A stretch of DNA of 64,000 nucleotides. Origin: Sinohyriopsis cumingii. Lineage: Eukaryota; Mollusca; Bivalvia; Unionida; Unionidae. Below, piece after piece: positions 9,037 to 58,194 of the stretch (its first letter is position 1; each line of letters begins with the position of its first letter). Position numbers and translations under genes: made by a program. The notes beneath the pieces were generated by a model. It was given only the letters and a program-made list of their open reading frames with translations, was not told the origin of the DNA and ran no database searches. Location: positions 25,787,308-25,851,307 of the forward strand of contig CM068841.1 in assembly GCA_028554795.2 (NCBI GenBank). Direction: 5' to 3'.

Positions 9037-12000
9037 ATTTATGTCTTTAACATACTTGATTCTGTGGAATGTTTATGAGATGCCAAGGGACACGACTGCA
9101 CAAACTGATGTAACTTCTTTACATTGCTTTGTTTATCTTATTGGGCAAGGTAATTTATTTGGCAAATCGCTTAGCCTTATCAAGCATAAATATCTTGGTG
9201 ATTTATTTTAATAATTAGGTATGCGAAAAGGATGTCAATAAAGTTTTGACATACATTTGTCCAAAATTGCTCACGTGCTCTCTCTGACCAGACATTACCT
9301 TGGGGTTTCTATCGGAGCAGAGTGTTTCCATTAGCCACACCCAGGGGTTAACGTCATATGTTTTCTTACTGTAAATTGCTACGGTTATTGACCTAGGTAA
9401 GATGTCATATCAACCCCTGTTCAGAACTAAACAGCTCAACCCGTTATCATAATTGTCGTATGTGTGCAATACATCGACTTTTCTTATGATTAATTGCGAA
9501 TGATCTTACCATGGCGTCGTACGTCAACTCGCCCTTGATGTCGCTGAATTACTCAATTTAAAATTTAATTTTATCTCTATATCTACTCTTACCCCTGGCA
9601 GCAGTTGTATGACATACTGCCACCGCTAACGATTAGCAGCATAATCCACTGTCATACTTGAGACTTTTTCTATTGTAGTATTAAGAGATTTTCCTGAATT
9701 TGGGGTGTTTTTGCCTTCGTTTTTATTTCAAATCAGTCGGAATGTTGCAGAATCACCTTATAATCTGAAGTTTTTGTAACTCATACATTTGACATCAATA
9801 TGTTTTCATACTAATCTCAGCTCAGGACCAATCAACACAATGCACCGTCATTCTCTAATGACTGAAGCTCAAAGTTATATGCAAATGCAGGTTGAGGCAT
9901 GACTAAAACCACCAACATCTATGCACACAAATTACATTCCGAGATCAAAACATAGTTTCAACTGTTTTGCTTTTTTGTCTGCACATTTTCCACATAAATC
10001 ATGTAGGAAGATTATAGTACTTATATAAATTCCACCAAAACCCATCAAACTAGTTATTTGTTTTGTGTATTTGTTTAATTGTTTGAAATTGGTATGGCGC
10101 TCTGGACTCATTATATACATAGACTACAAGGGAAAACAGCAACAATATGTATCAGAATATACAGAGGTCGAGTTCCATCATTTTCTCTCACTCGTTGCAA
10201 AATGTCACAAATATCCATCAGACACGGCATATTGCTGGCAGATTTTGAACCTAGACAGATTGGTTATATATGAAACTAGCTATCGTGGTGCGTGCAAAAG
10301 GATTCTATTATTATACGCAAATACTTGTCTCTGTTAACTTGACATTGCCAGAATCGTGCAGTGTTTTTTTATGGGACAAATTCTCATTAAAATCCATTCT
10401 TTCTGTTCGTTACTACACTATGGTCTTAAACCACGTAACAGAAAGAAGAAAAACCAAAAAGTTTTGTAAACAAATAATTTAGTTATCTAAGTTATAAAAT
10501 GAACATTTAAGAGGAACTTACAGTTTTGTGAATTCACTTCACAATAATGCTAAAATTTCTATCACAAGTCCAAAACATTTGTGTTCCGAATGATTCCCAG
10601 GTCATGAATATATTGATGTACCAATATCCTTGCCTATGCTGAAGTGTCAGCAGCACTGATGTATCACAATTATATTCTCAAAACTTTAGATGAATTCACG
10701 ATAACATCGAAATGATCCTTTAGTCCAGTGCGTCATTTGATCACAGTGGATAATCCAAATAGACGAGTCCTCTCAAATTATATCTAAACACAAGATTAAT
10801 GCAGCTTCTGATGGTGATGTATCTTTTATAATTGCATACACGTCTTATCCATCATGAGGTCTACTTATATTGATTTGATGCAAAGCATAAAATATTACTG
10901 TTCTCAATCCGCAGATTAATATAAGGTCTCCTTGGAAATTTGTTGAAAGCCATTAAACGTTTTCAAGTATTCGCCTCCTATTTCAAGTATTCGCTCTACC
11001 CTCTTACGACACCTTAGCGGTCTCTCCACCATGGAAAGAGCGACTATTTCTTGATCGCCAGAAAAGCAGTAAACTCCAGCCCGATCCCAGTAATTTATTT
11101 AACAAGTAAATTGGCCATAATGATGACAAACAAGCAGCAAATAAATGTACGAGGAGCATATTCATCCATCGATATAATTTCATTGGCCGTATTTTTTATT
11201 TTAGAATATTGTCACGTATCACCAAACCGTGGAATTTTGAACAAAAGTAGTCAAATATGCCATATGATACCACGTTATGGTAAAAAGGGCATGGTTCATA
11301 GTGAATCTGTCTATAGGAGTTACTGTATTGTATATATAGAAGCTTGTGTAAGCTGCATGCAATATTAATCCACAACTTACATGTATTCAATAGGCACATT
11401 AGTTGTGTTGCTCTCTACGTGAATGTTAATATTGATTGATTGCATAAATAATTATGGTTACTTGCACCATACTACATGAAAGCCAATATCATACGTGTGC
11501 TTGGATGGTTATAGGCCGCTCATGTGGCCTGAGCACTGGACACTAATAATGGATCCAATATTCATTTATCAAATGGGTTAGGTATTACATTATCTGCGGT
11601 AGAAAGGATGAACCAATTCAGAGCAGGCCTGAGCGACAGACTTGGACTTCATTACATGTATTGAGTGCCAAGTCAATGTAACGTTAAGGAAGCCTAGGGT
11701 CAGAATAGGTCCGTCATCTCATAATGTAGACTTTGGGTCTTGCCATCTTAATGCGGGCATACCAAGAGCGGATTCTGTGTCAGTTCTGATTGCCAGGTTA
11801 ACCTTCACGGGTCAGGATACTGTTCCGGCAGACATTCAGTATATCTCTATGCATGCTGACCAAGGCAATAATAAGGCAATGTTGTTATTTCTATCAGTTA
11901 TGCTTGGAGACGACTGCCTTTATTTAATAAATAAAATGTGTACTGACAGTTATATGTTTCATTTTTTCTCATCCATGCGACAGAGACATCTAGCTGTTTT

Positions 12001-17771: not shown

Positions 17772-49290
<31,519 letters not shown>

Positions 49291-51690: not shown

Positions 51691-52491
51691 TGGAACTGAT
51701 CATTGAGAAAGGTCAGCGCTTATTTATGTAAAGATGAATATGTGGAGTGAGGATGTGAGAAGAAGCAGAGCCATTTCCAGTCACGCCTGAGCCAAACCAA
51801 TCACAACAAAAATTGAAACAAGCTTAAAAGGCCTACACGTACAAGTGCAAGAAAAACTCTTGCGCTTGTTCGTGCAGGACAAACCCATGAGTGCATATCA
51901 AAGTTGAAATCAAATGCTCAGAAAATGTGAGCAGACAGCAAGGCAATGGATCTTACGTTTTACCTATAACATTTTGAAATATTAAAATAATACATGTAGT
52001 AGCGTCAACTGCCAGCAAGTGACAAGGGTGGGTAAACAAGAGATAGACACACAATATACAACAGTAGACATCCAGTTTGTATGATAAGCTTATTAACCTT
52101 TATCAAATCATTGGTGAAGTAAAGGTCGAACTGCACTTAAATGTTTTCAAGATAATTTTTAAACAGCTTTGCACGAAAACTATAATGGGGAGACTCCCAA
52201 GGAGCATGTGCTTTCCAAGTAAGAACAATATTTCTCCCCATGGAAGGAAGAACCACCAAAACGGGGATAAAGTCTCAGTGGTCGTGTACGCAAATGTGGG
52301 CCAAGGAAAGGTTACATGACAACAAGAGAGTTGAAATTAATGTTTGTGGACCAATACCCGATTAATGAACTCGCGGATCCGTTGGTATCACTAGAGTGGT
52401 ATGTTCGCGCGGAAAACACGCTATAAATCAATGAGACCGCATCGATTAGTCAACGGTTTGCTTACCAATGACATCATGTCAGTAGTTATTG
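51691..52491. other. No recognisable gene
   Basis: An open frame of 80 codons at 52,077-52,319 has no motif. The sequence is otherwise unremarkable up to the inverted repeat of element 2. Confidence 0.4.
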
Positions 52492-52983
52492 GGGGCGATA
52501 TAGAGACAAGGTAATACCGAGTCTAAAATTACTAGGCCTGTATAGGGACAAGTTTTATAGGGACAAGAAAAATTCAATCAAAAAGGTATTGGGCCTGCCT
52601 AGGGACAATGAGACTTATCATTAATATAGGGACACTATGAATGGAACAGGAGGTGACGTCACGGTACTGACAATTAGCAACAATGTAGCAAGGGGATGAC
52701 ATCAGTAAGGACCAAAGATCGGAAAAAAAACCAAAACAAATAAAAAACAAATCTAGCACGCTTGGCGGGAACGGGAATGACGGGACAGACAGAGATAACT
52801 CAGACAATAGACATTATACAAACAACTACACAATTAACTAAAAATATTTTAGGTAAGAATGCAAATCTTTTCGAGGCATATTTACAACAGACAACACTGA
52901 AACAATCATACAACAAACTAAAGAAAATTAGGCAAGAAAGCGAATCGTTTCGAGGCATATGAGTGACCCTGAAAAGGGCCTTT
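52492..52983 (+). repeat. Element 2 left terminal inverted repeat
   Basis: About 490 bp. It is longer than the right copy partly because of an internal duplication around GCAAATCTTTTCGAGGCATAT / GCGAATCGTTTCGAGGCATAT. AGGGACA occurs several times in the outer 150 bp, mostly as TATAGGGACA. The match to the right copy ends at the stem-loop. Confidence 0.8.
52965..52980 (-). terminator. Histone-type 3' stem-loop (left repeat)
   Basis: On the minus strand the 16-mer GGCCCTTTTCAGGGTC is preceded by AAA and followed by ACTCATATGCCTCGAAACG. The 6-bp stem contains one G-U pair and the loop is the 4-nt TTTC. The sequence matches the metazoan replication-dependent histone stem-loop apart from that base. 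The leftward gene that would use it is not identifiable. Confidence 0.65.
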
Positions 52984-53199
52984 CGATTTTTGTTAAGATC
53001 ATTCCGGTTAACATAGATAGCAACGCATAGATCTTCTTCTCTTCCTCAAACTTCTTCTGACTTCTGGTCCGTAGATAAGGACCCTTTTCAAGCATCCTTG
53101 TCTCTCCACATAAATTCTTCTTTTCCAAACATTCGCATCCGTGATCCTGATAATTGTCCTTGATGATTTCACATACATGGATAAGTCCGTACGGAACAG

Positions 53200-54260
53200 C
53201 ACTTGTTCAATACCGAAGCCAATCAACACGCCATTCTAACCCATTTGCCTGAGGCTCACGACTACGACCCTGACAACATTCGTGCCGAACAAACAGAAAC
53301 TTTTACGCTTGGTACCAGACTCACGCCTCGGACCCCTTCGACTTTCAGGAACAAATGTTCTAGTATCGTCGTTCCGACGTGGTCATTTTACGGCGTTGCT
53401 GTGGAAAATTTCGAGACCTCTTCATGGAATACGGAGAGATCGATCCTTTGAAAGAGGCCTATACCATTGCCAAGGCGTGTTCCTTAGTGTACCAGCAACG
53501 TTTCATGCCGAAAACACCCTGGATGTAATTAGCCCTCAAACGACGAACTTTGTCAAACGTCAATACTCGGTCAAATCCCTACACTGGCTACATTACTTAT
53601 GCGACAAGGAAGACAAATGGATCCAACATGTCCGCAACGTAGGAGGCGAAAAGACCATCGGAACGTATTCGGTGGATGGTTGTGACTTAGAAAACCCCAA
53701 CATGGTGTACGAGTTTAACGGTTGCTTATTTCACGGATGTCCCTTCTGTTACCCTCAGCTTGACAGAAAAAATCAGTTTTTACAACAGACCATGGAAGAC
53801 TTGTACCAGGCCACTTTTCAGCAGCTATTGAAGTTAGAACAGCATGGATACCATGTGGTGAAAATGTGGGAACACGAGTACGATCACCGTTTGAAAACCG
53901 ATCAAGAGTTTAAACGCATCATGGAAAGTTACAAGTTGGTGGACCCAGTGAACCCGGAAGACAGTTTGTATGCAGGAAGGACAAATGCCACCTGTTGGCT
54001 GTACCAAGCCGACGAAGAGAAAGGAGAATAAATCAAATACTTGGATGTGTATTCGCTGTATCCTTACGTGTGCAAATATTGTCTTTTCCCACAGGGCACC
54101 CGCCATTGCTTACGGAACACATCGATCAATTTACCAATTTCCCAAGCCAGAACAGTACCACAAGAGCGACGAGACTCAGAAAGGCAGTGTATTGTGTTAT
54201 CGGTGCGGCCTTTGCCAATTTGAGCCTGCAACAAGGAGACAAACAACTGTAGACCATTTA
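53200..54260 (+). pseudogene. Family-B DNA polymerase fragment of element 2
   Basis: The frame begins near 53,200 (LFNTEANQHAILTHLPEAHD), shifts near 53,310 (DVVILRRCCGKFRDLFMEYG, DPLKEAYTIAKACSLV), then runs in 53,486-54,031: TNFVKRQYSVKSLHWLHYLC, VYEFNGCLFHGCPFCYP, HGYHVVKMWEHEYDH and YAGRTNATCWLYQ. A TAA at 54,029 precedes KYLDVYSLYPYVCKY, which is polymerase motif A. Another shift gives FPTGHPPLLTEHIDQ and GAAFANLSLQQG before the match ends near 54,260. The exonuclease end and the start of the palm are present; the rest of the enzyme is deleted. Confidence 0.85.
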
Positions 54261-54435
54261 ATTGAGCAGCTGAATCGGTTACCTTCTTCCCAAAACTTCC
54301 CTGAAATACTCCTCGAACGGGAACAACGGGAATCTTGCGTCCAGCGTCAGTCACCAATCCAACAACAACAACATTTTGGGCGGAGACACTCCTCTGACTT
54401 CCAGTGACCCCTCGGACAGCCGAAGAACTCTAGAA

Positions 54436-55245
54436 TTATGAACAACAACAACCAAATTTACTTAACCTTACCCAGTGACAGTTACATGGAGGTGTTTCCC
54501 AATAACACAGTGTGTTGTTACACGGCCAAATTACCTCAGGCCATCCAATAGGATCACGAAGCCCATTGGGAAGTGGCTTTGGTGGAAATGACTTACCCAA
54601 CACAAAACGAAAACATCACTGAAAAAGCAAAGCAATTTCCCGTTCGAAATCCTGAACGCCCAATTGCAAGAAGAAATAAATAAAATCGGGTTTTCAGGTG
54701 ACACAACGCCAGCAAGCAATCCATCCTTTAGCATCTACACGTTGAAAATTCAGGCTATTATTTTAGTGGTGAACATTTGGTAGACACCATTGCGGACAGG
54801 TTCGAGTTAGCATTTGGCAAAGCCCTAAACAGAGCCAAAAGGAGTGTTAAAATTGCGTGTCATAAAGTGGCTCGTAACCTACTGATAAAAATTCAGGATA
54901 TCGACAGTTTGTCTCTCAGGTTTAATGGTAATTTGTTTGAAATTTTGGGTGGACATCCGCAGATGGTACCACATAATCTGGGCCCAAAGATCAACAGTAA
55001 TTTGGAACTTTACAGGGCTTTTGGATCCCCGGTAGAACTGAACGAAAGACTCAATTTAATCTTTGTGTACTCCGATGTAGTGGAGTATAACGTGCTGAGA
55101 CACACCTCCGTACCGTTACTGCGTGTCATTACATTCAAAGTTGATAGTACCACGACCATTTAACAGGAAGGTGGAAATACCTATAACGTTCACCGCGAAT
55201 TTGTACATCTTTACTATTTACCTGTGCCTCGTAAAAATGGATAAT
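54436..55245 (+). pseudogene. Penton-like capsid protein of element 2, broken
   Basis: It starts MNNNNQIYLTLPSDSYMEVF, with NNTVCCYTAKLPQAI, then a TAG at 54,549 and EAHWEVALVEMTYP. Two frame changes near 54,640 and 54,745 follow, then SGEHLVDTIADRFELAFGKA and the main frame to 55,163 (NLFEILGGHPQMVPHNLGP, VPLLRVITFKVD). A terminal piece (HREFVHLYYLPVPRKNG) is in frame after the TAA at 55,161. This is the single jelly-roll penton-type protein of a different Polinton lineage. It has no room for the 215-codon insert seen in the Polinton 1 homologue. Confidence 0.75.
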
Positions 55246-55450
55246 AGAAGTGTGTCTAATGACACTTCGTTTCTATAACTTTGTTAGTAGTGTGTCTATA
55301 AGCACTTCGTTTTCTTAGCTTGTCAATTAGTCAGTGAGTTTGTAATTGTAATTAGTGTTTGTAAGTAAAAGGTGAGTTAGTGTTTCTTTTAAGTCCGCGC
55401 GATCAATGTGTGTTGTAGTAATGATATGGACAATGTAAGTTTTGGTGACA
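55246..55450. other. Spacer upstream of the first promoter module
   Basis: Two near-copies of GTGTCTAATGACACTTCGTT / GTGTCTATAAGCACTTCGTT at about 55,250-55,315 lie just past the penton-like gene; the inner GTGTC..GACAC is a small palindrome. AAAAGGTGAGTTAGTG at 55,366 resembles a splice donor. Confidence 0.4.
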
Positions 55451-55490
55451 AGGATGTTTTCCTTCACGGTCGTGCTCAACCCATATAAAG
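55451..55490 (+). promoter_or_regulatory. Promoter module 1 of element 2
   Basis: GGATGTTTTCCTTCACGGTC followed by CGTGCTC and TATA box ATATAAAG (55,483-55,490). It recurs almost unchanged at 56,840. The 42-codon gene starts 50 bp after the TATA box. Confidence 0.7.
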
Positions 55491-55539
55491 GGAGCGCTCG
55501 TCAGTCTGGATACCCTTGTTGATTCATCAACTGTGAAGA

Positions 55540-55668
55540 ATGAGCAGCAGACTCGCAAAACTGATGGAACTCCAATTGCACATGGAATATGCCAGGCGTC
55601 TCCTTGATGAGCTGGCTATGGTGGCGATAGGCGAAGATGCCAGGGTAGAAAAAGAGGAGGAAAAATAA
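55540..55668 (+). CDS. Short acidic protein, 42 aa (element 2)
   Basis: MSSRLAKLMELQLHMEYARR, then LLDELAMVAIGEDARVEKEE and a Lys/Glu end. It is helical and amphipathic, starts 50 bp after the TATA box of promoter module 1 and ends at TAA before a Glu/Lys-coding run. Function unknown. It could be the first exon of a longer product with the frame at 55,752-56,093, but no clear splice sites were found. Confidence 0.45.
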   Translation: MSSRLAKLMELQLHMEYARRLLDELAMVAIGEDARVEKEEEK

Positions 55669-55751
55669 AGAAAGAAGAGGAGGAAAAGAAAAATATATCC
55701 TACCTCACGTAATTATGTGACTTGTGTGTGAGGTCAAGCCTGAGGCTATGA

Positions 55752-56093
55752 CGCCTCCACAGAGAAAAAACACCGAAGCCACTGCCAACACAGCAGCCTC
55801 TACCAGCACCACAGCAAGTAGCAGTGCAGGTGCGTGAGGAATATATTAGGAGGCCTCAACATCCAACAGTGTGGAATAGGAGAAGACAGAGGGAAGTCTT
55901 CACTATCCCTGAAAGTAAAGACTGGGAGCGTGAAGCCAATCTGAGTTCACAACCACAAGAATCAATTGGGGCAATGATTGGAGTCGCCGTTGTGTCTGTG
56001 GTGCTCGCGCTTGGAGGTGTCACAATCAAGCTGGTGCATCTGAAGTTAAAACAAAAACATAACAGCCCTTGTCAGTGCTACTCAGATCTCTAG
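55752..56093 (+). CDS. Single-pass membrane protein (element 2)
   Basis: An open frame without a clear ATG: PLPTQQPLPAPQQVAVQVRE, a basic region (NRRRQREVFTIPESKDWERE), then a transmembrane segment SIGAMIGVAVVSVVLALGG and a short tail with CQCYSDL, ending at TAG 56,091. The Pro/Gln-rich N-terminus and the single helix suggest a type I-like membrane protein. Either the start is a non-ATG or it is joined by splicing to an upstream exon. No family recognised. Confidence 0.45.
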   Translation, partial: RLHREKTPKPLPTQQPLPAPQQVAVQVREEYIRRPQHPTVWNRRRQREVFTIPESKDWEREANLSSQPQESIGAMIGVAVVSVVLALGGVTIKLVHLKLKQKHNSPCQCYSDL

Positions 56094-56099
56094 AAAATA

Positions 56100-56780
56100 G
56101 ACTAGATTGTGTGCTTGCATAAGTGAGCATACGCTTGTGTGGATAGTAGATTTTGGGGGTTTGTAAGCATTCGCGTACGTTTGTGTAAACAGCAGAGTGT
56201 GTGATTTTCCCTTCCTTTCTGTGTGGATGGTATATTTGGGTCTGTTTTGTTCTCCTTCCTGTGTGTGGATAGTATAATTGGGTTTATTTGTGCTCCTCAC
56301 CTTTGTGTTGATAGTATATTTGTGGTTTGTGAATAGTATAGTAAGGGTTTGTTTTTTCTCCTTCTCGTGTATGGATAGTATATTTGTGATTTGTTTTTGC
56401 TTTTCACCTCTGTGGTAATAGTATAATTGGGTTTGCCTTTGCTCCTTACCTTTGTGTTGATAGTATATTTGTGCTTGTGAATATTTTGTAAGGGTTTGTT
56501 TTTTCTCCTTCACGTGCGTGGATAGTATATGTGTGATTTGCTTTTGCTCCTCACCTCTGTGGTGATAGTATAACTGGGTTTGTTTTTTCTTCTTCCCATG
56601 TGTAGATATTAGATATTGAGGGTTTTGATAGTATATTTGGTTTTTTTCTCCTTCTCGTGTGTGGATAGTATAATTAAGTTTTTTTTTTTCTCTTTCTTGT
56701 GTGTGGCTAATATATTTAGGTTTTGTTTTTGCTCCTTACCTTTGTGTTGATAGTATATTGGTGGTGTTTTCATATTATGT
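56100..56780. repeat. ~60-bp tandem repeat of element 2
   Basis: About ten irregular copies of a unit with GTGTGTGGATAGTATATTTG, then TGGTTTGTTTTTGCTCCT and CACCTTTGTG, varying in order and length. Long open frames on the minus strand are by-products of this repetition. Confidence 0.85.
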
Positions 56781-56839
56781 AATAGTTATATAGGTTAAGT
56801 TATGTATCGATAGTAGATAATATGTGAAGGTGAGTGTAA

Positions 56840-56879
56840 GGGATGTTTTCCTTCACGTCCGTGCTTGAGAAATATAAAG
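56840..56879 (+). promoter_or_regulatory. Promoter module 2 of element 2
   Basis: GGATGTTTTCCTTCACGTCC followed by GTGCTTG and TATA box ATATAAAG (56,872-56,879). The distance from GGATG to the TATA box is 31 bp in both modules. It precedes the gene that ends at the right stem-loop. Confidence 0.7.
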
Positions 56880-56976
56880 TCAAAGCCTTTGTCGTTCGCG
56901 CCATTCTACACAGAATAAAATAGAATAACAATAGAGTTATTTAACAAGTTGAAGGACAGTTGGTACTGGATGGTGG

Positions 56977-57503
56977 ATGCCATTTATATGGTGGAAAGGC
57001 TACAATGAATGGAGGTATCCAGTCACCAAAGACTTTGTGACAAGTCAAGTGACCAACCTGAGAGTAGCCAGTGATCTGGTACAAGGCATGATCCAAGAGG
57101 AAGCAGAAAAGTTACGAGGCTTCTTTCAATCAATATTTTTGAGAAAGGGCACCTTGAATAAGCCCCTTGATAATGTAATGAAAGTAAGGTGTATTTTAGA
57201 AGAGATATTGAATTGGACAGAGTGGTCATTGTGAAGTGCGGGCTGAACCAACTAAGGAAAGCAGAATAACTAATGTGAAAAGTGCTGCAAGAAGAAGTGA
57301 AGAAAATAAACGACAGGTGGTCTAAAGAAAGAAAGGACAAAGAAAACATAAAGAAAAAAGAGAAGTTTTACAGACTAAATCAAAATTGACTAACGGTGCA
57401 GGAAACATTTAGATCGATGGACTATCCTGACTTGATGCCAGAGAAAAAGAAAAAGAAGAAGAAAGGAATGATTGAAAACGTGAGTAAATGGTGGAAGAAA
57501 TAG
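56977..57503 (+). pseudogene. Right-end gene of element 2, unknown function, ends at a histone-type stem-loop
   Basis: The first frame runs 56,977-57,234: MPFIWWKGYNEWRYPVTKDF, helical middle (NLRVASDLVQGMIQEEAEK) and KVRCILEEILN. After its TGA the second part is in other frames: QEEVKKINDRWSKERKDKEN, then a lysine run and GMIENVSKWWKK with TAG at 57,501-57,503. The C-terminal half is strongly basic and helical. It is not a histone. It may be one gene with two breaks or two small genes. Promoter module 2 lies upstream and the stem-loop 20 nt downstream. Confidence 0.5.
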
Positions 57504-57520
57504 AAAAAATAGAAGAACCC

Positions 57521-57907
57521 AAAGGCCCTTTTCAGGGCCACTCATATGCCTCGAAAAGATTTGCTTACTTGCCTAAATTTATTTTAGTTAATTGTATAGT
57601 TGTTTGTATTATGTCTATTGCCCGTGTTTTCTGTCTCTGTCCTGCCAGTCACGTTCCTGCCAAACATTCTATTTTTTTATCCCTTTGTTTTCTCCGATTG
57701 AAGTCAACCCCTTGATATATTGTTGCTAATTGTCAGTACCATGACATCACCTCCCTGTTCCATTCCTATTGTCCCTACATTAATGATACGTCCCTATAAT
57801 GGCCCAATACGTTTTTGATTGGATCTTCCCTTGTTCCCATAAATCTTGTCCCTATACAGGCCCACGACCTTTTTGACTGGAGTTTCCATTTTCACTATAT
57901 CGCACCC
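57521..57907 (-). repeat. Element 2 right terminal inverted repeat
   Basis: About 387 bp, reading inward in reverse complement as GGGTGCGATATAG ... GGCCTGTATAGGGACAAG ... GAGGCATATGAGTGGCCC. The inner boundary coincides with the histone-type stem-loop. Confidence 0.8.
57524..57539 (+). terminator. Histone-type 3' stem-loop (right repeat)
   Basis: GGCCCTTTTCAGGGCC, preceded by CCCAAA and followed by ACTCA. This agrees with the metazoan histone mRNA stem-loop in stem sequence, 4-nt TTTC loop and both flanks. The purine run GAAAAGA at 57,553-57,559, 13 nt downstream, is where the U7-binding histone downstream element lies in histone genes. The stop codon of the upstream gene (57,501-57,503) is 20 nt away, a histone-like distance. 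Confidence 0.8.
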
Positions 57908-58194
57908 TTTAAATACTTATGCACACTGGAAGGCTTCGCTTGTTGACGCACAAACGCACTTAATACATCAATGATATATATTACCACATCTGTGGTGAGT
58001 TACAAAACACTTTCAACTGAAACAAATTTATGTTGCGGTACACCATGCAGTTCTAAATCCAGCGCTATCTCGATGATTACAATCTTAGCAACGACACCAG
58101 AATATCAACAACCAACAGCCGAGATCGTACTAGTGTCTTTGCACATATATTACTGCTGGCCTAATATCCGATACACATGAAACTTGGTAAAGTG
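57908..58194. other. Left edge of the right-hand Polinton remnant
   Basis: Non-coding or undetermined. A TTTAAATACTTA stretch at 57,908 could be a TATA-like element. The 69-codon frame at 57,971-58,180 has no recognised motif. Confidence 0.3.

Follow-up and report, generated by a model that had tools for sequence, protein, structure and literature searches.

The window, by which we mean the whole 64-kb stretch of Sinohyriopsis cumingii DNA analysed here, carries a decayed Polinton with the remnants of several genes and with hairpins of the histone type. The gene labels R1, R2, R3, b and c are our own, assigned by eye. The features recognized in the element were:

52480–57916 (no strand): decayed, shortened Polinton copy of ~5.4 kb, delimited by terminal inverted repeats and by tblastn to sister copies
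52480–52985, minus strand: left terminal inverted repeat, in the same order reading outward, with a mirror-image hairpin at its inner edge
52965–52980, minus strand: histone-type stem-loop of the left-end gene b, reading outward (Histone3 match 52941–52985)
53059–53190, minus strand: remnant of the outward left-end gene b, Arg-rich (tblastn 61% over 44 aa)
53319–54067: PolB remnant (tblastn 75–76% to the PolB of sister copy L085)
55452–55500, plus strand: promoter-like motif GGATGTTTTCCTTCACG.. and TATAAA upstream of R2 (repeat comparison, sister copies)
55537–56026, plus strand: R2 remnant (tblastn 62% over 37 aa and 61% over 18 aa)
56064–56079, plus strand: decayed stem-loop of gene R2, with 5/6 pairs, of the R2/R3 type (A-T first pair)
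56838–57512, plus strand: R1 remnant and its leader, interrupted by stop codons and frameshifts (tblastn hit at 56838–57443, 208 aa with 37.5% identity)
56841–56880, plus strand: the same motif GGATGTTTTCCTTCACG.. and TATAAA upstream of R1
57519–57916, plus strand: right terminal inverted repeat, with the hairpin as its inner edge (blastn of the arms; identity drop past ~57920)
57524–57539, plus strand: histone-type stem-loop of gene R1 with its six pairs unbroken (Histone3 match 57519–57563)
57553–57559, plus strand: GAAAAGA, histone-downstream-element (HDE)-like, 13 nt 3' of the stem, with sequence and spacing as in host H3, H4 and H2B

The decayed Polinton and its hairpins

The first-pass annotation had called the element Polinton-like. 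This label is right, because of the terminal repeats, the PolB and penton-like remnants, and the integrase, PolB-like and capsid proteins of the sister copies. The left and right arms aligned by blastn with 77% identity over 405 nt and 87% over 85 nt. By tblastn against the sister copies, PolB matched with 75–76% and a protein judged by eye to be penton-like with 50% identity; R1, R2 and b were matched as well. The remnants have interrupted reading frames. The PolB of L085 scored 21.4 with Pfam, slightly under the cut-off of 25.8; we assume that Polinton PolB is protein-primed. Another L085 ORF had 26% identity to the Pox_A32-type ATPase of a second Polinton in the window. Sister copy L087 encoded an rve integrase (53.5 bits) and a chromodomain (31.8 bits), for which no tblastn match was found in the shortened window copy, and what we take, from a motif and with no Pfam match, to be a protease.

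The sister-copy capsid protein had 1828 homologues. Among the 120 listed, the named ones were nearly all “F54H12.2-like” and came from bivalves and one sea cucumber; we take F54H12.2 to be a capsid protein. Common to the Polintons/Mavericks (adintoviruses) and the elements described here are the rve integrase with chromodomain, PolB, the F54H12.2-like capsid and the terminal repeats. A 6-bp target duplication, which we assume to be a Polinton trait, was not discernible in the decayed window copy. Any function would have to be sought in relatives or ancestors of the window copy, which is itself a decayed remnant.

The hairpin of R1, GGCCCTTTTCAGGGCC, lies at 57524–57539 on the plus strand, with AAA 5' of the stem and ACTCA 3' of it. 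The Rfam model Histone3 (RF00032, gathering score 34 bits) matched it at full length over 57519–57563, with 38.1 bits and an E-value of 5.4e-8. An in-frame TAG at 57501–57503 ends 20 nt upstream of the stem, and the next TAG, at 57510–57512, is the stop position in most relatives. The flanked stem-loop, the GAAAAGA 13 nt past it and the stop 20 nt before it had all been claimed from the letters, with a covariance-model search proposed as a check. All of them were found, the match is significant, and the observation of a histone-type hairpin is confirmed. The proposed RNA fold counted against it. The folding energy of the window copy was ordinary (z −0.31, 72 of 200 shuffles being equally stable) and the minimum-energy fold of a 69-nt piece differed from the histone-type hairpin, and we set folding energy aside as uninformative for this copy.

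The hairpin had been placed at the right end of the element, which is correct yet incomplete, as hairpins were also found in the left repeat and after an internal gene. The Histone3 match of the left repeat (52941–52985, minus strand) scored 24.5 bits with an E-value of 0.0063, under the gathering score. The decayed R2 hairpin was found by a core scan, at 56061, and had no Histone3 listing at E ≤ 10. A third listing in the window (47222–47256, 16.1 bits, E-value 9) was at chance level, and none was obtained between positions 1 and 40000 at E ≤ 1. When the 64-kb window was scanned with two hairpin cores at up to four mismatches, three sites were recognized, all inside the decayed Polinton; the same scan of 10 block-shuffled windows returned zero sites.

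Further repeats were seen in and around the element. In the left repeat, a 33-nt stretch following the hairpin is duplicated, at 52849–52881 and 52928–52960, 79 nt apart. Imperfect repeats at ~42–147 nt spacing fill 56202–56782, between R2 and R1. At 45918–46084 there is a long hairpin (Rfam MIR7996, 58.5 bits against a cut-off of 119), which is probably a small inverted-repeat element.

Hairpins in other copies, in host histone genes and in other Polintons

The genome was searched with Histone3, and 75 of 589,472 first-look candidates were scored, so the numbers that follow are no census. Every one of the 75 exceeded the cut-off, with 42.6–45.6 bits for 69, and none lay at the 150 histone places listed separately. 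In 14 control genomes, all prokaryotic, there were matches at E ≤ 10 and none above the cut-off. From the 75 we extracted 30 loci. Polinton genes adjoined the hairpin in all 30 (tblastn), and by eye no histone ORF preceded the hairpin in any of them. The majority belonged to a less decayed group, here “family B”.

Rfam was then run on 20 of the 30 loci, plus four pieces of 9.8–9.9 kb from four separate copies. This gave 49 Histone3 matches (at E ≤ 0.05 and E ≤ 1), or 45 distinct ones without four duplicates. The stop of a recognisable gene was located 7–36 nt upstream on the same strand in 48 of the 49 (44 of the 45 distinct). These 48 belonged to R1 (7), b (18), c (15), R2 (6) and R3 (2); at the leftover site, in L061, R1 was present by tblastn. 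An HDE-like motif stood 13 nt past the stem in 45/49 matches and 41/45 distinct sites, a count in which the top matches are biased towards the HDE because the Rfam model spans this A-rich stretch. The 13-nt spacing was also kept at the lower-scoring c, R2 and R3 sites, which were found as neighbours.

R1, R2 and R3 form a tandem array at the right end and are oriented outward, as is b at the left end. Gene c reads inward from a region that it has in common with b and ends ~1.1 kb inside the element. The hairpins of c, R2 and R3 are thus internal to the element and outside the terminal repeats, which links the hairpin to the genes rather than to the repeats in themselves. All five genes with their hairpins were recognized in window-family pieces as well (L048, L049 and L053). 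Downstream of the integrase, capsid, PolB and other core ORFs of the four pieces there was no hairpin, and the structural and replication genes of the examined pieces were without the signal. R3 of L086 had no intact hairpin, its own being decayed. Judged from these sequences, the claim is larger than first noted: five genes of a Polinton lineage end in this way, not one.

With respect to the gene products, the Pfam test for histones covered R1, R2, R3 and c, none of which gave a match at E ≤ 0.05. The all-helical model of an R1 homologue (mean pLDDT 74.8) had no PDB match at E ≤ 0.001 among 502, and we therefore claim no function for it. Gene b (L071, L085) encodes ~66 residues from the likely ATG, with an Arg/Cys-rich tail, RRSLRRRRCHRCPFC; its product is possibly a DNA-condensing core protein. 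By eye, b and c are divergently arranged around a short region (L071 1050–1260, L085 9050–9330) that contains two TATA-like boxes and a pair of ATTGG (CCAAT) motifs, an arrangement reminiscent of divergent histone gene pairs. An outward ORF at the left end, close to where the inward PolB region starts (L085 7841–8245, also in L048), encodes what we take by eye to be a CCHC zinc knuckle.

Upstream of R1 and R2 we found a 24-nt motif, GGATGTTTTCCTTCACGTCCGTGC (window 55452 and 56841; also in L053, L084, L086 and L087), doubled before R1 in family B and followed in the window family by a TATA-type box ~8 nt after it. The promoter-like motif had 0 chance matches in 20 shuffles of 19.7 kb. That R1 and R2 have GGATGTTTTCCTTCACGTCCGTGC in common suggests that they are also co-regulated at their 5' ends.

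A host histone unit (L088) encoded H3, H4, H2B, H2A and H1, each with a hairpin of 35.0–39.4 bits and with GAAAAGA or GAAAAGG at 13, 13, 13, 14 and 14 nt past the stem, respectively. Among the named proteins listed, those closest to the histone H1 of the host came from molluscs. The stretch CTCTAGAAAAGA was common to host H2B and several R2/R3 sites. Like the replication-dependent histone genes of metazoans, the Polinton sites have the hairpin sequence and shape, the A-rich 5' flank, the closeness to the stop, GAAAAGA at 13–14 nt and intronless ORFs; unlike them, the Polinton genes encode non-histones and sit in a mobile, virus-like element. Replication-dependent histone genes are treated in PMC6303110 (eLife 2018).

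The searches for the host machinery were weak tests, because neither family gave a signal in any control. For U7, RF00066 had no match in the genome and was silent in every control genome; a pattern search returned 11 matches against 9 in a reversed control, with neither an Rfam U7 match nor a hairpin that would convince as that of U7. For SLBP, PF15247 had no match at E ≤ 0.001 when searched exon by exon, with the controls silent too, and the search would miss an SLBP domain interrupted by introns.

Other Polintons were sampled with a capsid-alignment scan of bacterial assemblies, which recovered five contigs (L089–L093) resembling contaminating animal Polintons. They are probably animal Polinton contigs inside bacterial assemblies, for example of Escarpia and Bathymodiolus symbionts; such contigs are a source of contamination and also a way of sampling Polintons. 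The check on other Polintons was positive for L092 and negative for the remaining four, of which L089 and L093, if not more, have insufficient length for both ends of an element. L092, recorded as a Bacteroidia bin, has an integrase, a capsid protein 32% identical to the query and PolB. Its Histone3 match (35.8 bits, E-value 8.5e-7) lies 28 nt past the stop of a small ORF that we take by eye to encode a C2H2 finger, and the A-rich AAAAAAGAGA starts 12 nt past the stem (12–13 nt). L090 had a weak match resembling a twister-P1 ribozyme at 10734–10798 (28.9 bits against 67.2), ~480 nt past its capsid match. Searches of IMG/VR with the ATPase, the integrase alignment, two alignments of the capsid and the hairpin as an exact pattern recovered no relatives.

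The second Polinton of the window, at 19244–35371, has terminal repeats of 153 nt and no histone-type hairpin. Its recognized genes were:

21889–22362: capsid-like (DJR-like domain, under the cut-off)
22525–23448: adenovirus endoprotease, weak match
33390–34001: integrase-like
34435–35193: Pox_A32-type ATPase

Given this element and the four contigs without a match, the signal is not universal among Polintons.

Conservation of the hairpin within and between families

In the 2.9-Gb genome, a search with the right terminal repeat scored 40 of 2604 candidates and placed this repeat at no fewer than 40 sites, including the window's own (43 rows, three of them second pieces). The hairpin was visible by eye in 38 of the 39 other extracted copies, in some of them decayed, and was missing in L036. 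The 40 ends obtained with both window ends included and L036 excluded comprised 22 of the right type and 18 of the left type. The inner flanks of the two types differ and converge at the hairpin.

Across 41 ends the column identity was high from the hairpin to ~57920 and fell beyond. As it was high up to there, the hairpin is not better conserved than the remaining repeat within the window family. All six pairs were kept in 21 of the 41 ends and 23 of 246 pair cells were broken, as neutral decay would give. The within-family test for compensation, whose 41 rows include the hairpin-less L036, counted 223 paired cells out of 246, where the shuffles averaged 219.3, and 52 of 2000 shuffles reached the observed value. 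Double changes were seen in two ends (L013 and L015). The window family is decaying, and its compensation test is weak.

At the right ends, mismatches by codon position were 0.201, 0.198 and 0.263, pointing to a codon-type constraint; this excess at the third position of the R1 remnant was found over the 22 right-type ends. The left ends of the window family had no codon periodicity (0.223, 0.238 and 0.240), so that support for gene b comes from family B rather than from the window family. Within family B, the protein identity of b was 70–100% (tblastn).

Ten window-family copies, found by whole-repeat similarity and then hand-chosen, were compared with nine family-B copies. The hairpin with its flanks was 92.4% identical between families, a value somewhat inflated because the family-B loci were chosen by hairpin score; the HDE was 81.2% and the 11-nt spacer 57% identical. 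In the ten 30-nt repeat blocks that follow, the identity was 29–73%, eight being at ≤57% (29–57%), and eight of these ten further blocks had more than one third gaps.

In R1, b and most c sites, pair 1 of the stem is G-C; in R2/R3 it is A-T (AGCCC..GGGCT), which occurs in six distinct, fully paired sites and in more in L050 and L053 and probably arose in a single event. At pair 3, gene c of L048 has T-A (GGTCC..GGACC) as against C-G in its family-B counterparts, and the host H1 hairpin likewise has T-A at this pair. Related elements thus kept the stem, with both partners changed so as still to pair at pair 1 (R2/R3) and pair 3 (c); the lack of such compensatory changes was one of the refuting outcomes named in the first-pass annotation.

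A probable histone-type 3' end for Polinton genes

Our main reading, with a probability of about 0.83, is that a Polinton lineage ends R1, R2, R3, b and c with the histone 3' signal, for histone-type processing by host SLBP and U7. The mRNAs of these five genes are then probably without poly(A). The earlier interpretation of a histone-type 3' end is supported by the sequence comparisons. The signal, on R1–R3 at the right and on b and c at the left, would act through its 6-bp stem, its 4-nt loop and, 13 nt beyond, a purine motif of the U7 type. The hairpin would serve as the binding site of host SLBP and the U7 snRNP would pair with GAAAAGA; pairing of the host U7 5' end with CTAGAAAAGA and CTTGAAAAGA is predicted. 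CPSF73, for which cleavage between hairpin and HDE is established in histone pre-mRNA, may cut at the same place here. The products would be short intronless mRNAs lacking poly(A), with a peak presumably in S phase, when the cell provides replication factors, and they would be exported, translated and, with S phase, degraded like histone mRNA.

Of the alternatives, the one that survives best, itself improbable, is a signal that is real and merely accessory, with mostly downstream polyadenylation and a hairpin active in some cells or stages only. AATAAA was found ~70 nt past the hairpin in L092 and 317 nt past it in the b-side repeat of L085, and host histone genes themselves have AATAAA or ATTAAA within 300 nt in two of the five cases in L088. 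Against this view, neither hexamer was present in the 420 nt past either terminal hairpin of the window, nor in the 364–420 nt past those of L084, L086 and L087. Within 300 nt of the R-gene stops there was none in seven tested, six with a hairpin and one, R3 of L086, with a decayed one. Most core ORFs, often running into the next ORF, also lacked AATAAA/ATTAAA within 300 nt. Poly(A) signals therefore do not clearly separate the gene classes, and we dropped them as a divider.

The sequence is near-identical to host histone ends, and the hairpins of R2 and R3 resemble one duplicated unit, as would be expected had a host histone 3' end been captured once and spread by duplication inside the element as a functionless passenger. 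We consider this very improbable, as hairpin and HDE were kept between families whose surrounding repeat has largely diverged, double changes preserve the pairing, and the Polinton of another assembly (L092) has the same hairpin position behind a different gene. The footprint and the double changes thus weaken the case for a captured, functionless tail. A DNA feature of the terminal repeats (a replication start, or a terminal-protein or integrase site) with a coincidental histone likeness would fit the mirror-imaged hairpins in both terminal repeats of the window and has an equally slim chance, since the internal genes c, R2 and R3 carry the hairpin on the gene strand right past the stop, with an HDE at 13 nt as in host histones that a DNA site would not lead one to expect, by which a chance or DNA-only hairpin was rejected.

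The histone-type 3' end, as the preferred reading, may be part of a wider programme of two classes. It is likely that the core genes end conventionally and that the accessory genes form a poly(A)-less, SLBP/U7-dependent S-phase regulon, some with a common promoter motif, in Polintons of more than one host.

The virophage Sputnik is related to Polintons. According to PMC6723459, Sputnik carries the hairpin signal of Mimivirus at the end of 16 genes and is, as here, a small virus with its helper's hairpin signal at gene ends; that hairpin, however, is the Mimivirus polyadenylation signal, whereas the Polinton hairpin would be the histone signal of the host cell. In the relevant section of PMC12220804, six “histone 3'UTR stem-loop” matches in Polinton-like viruses and virophages are given without comment. 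They are a mere count among non-coding RNA classes, with none in cryptophyte elements, and no gene, HDE or function is discussed there for this class. Within the mostly open-access literature searched, including parts of PMC12220804, PMC12721341, PMC11071296, PMC6723459 and PMC9341512, no histone-type 3' end was described for an animal Polinton/Maverick, in line with the first-pass annotation, which knew of none.

If the main reading is true, a virus-like parasite links its own genes to host DNA replication without any cell-cycle control of its own. This would explain the absence of such transcripts from poly(A)-selected RNA-seq. The signal of the five genes would offer natural test substrates for SLBP and U7, and a searchable signature for Polinton accessory genes with few or no protein database matches. 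The histone 3' end is taught as specific to histone mRNA, and to our knowledge no earlier animal non-histone gene set uses it as a standard signal; the Polinton genes would be the first.
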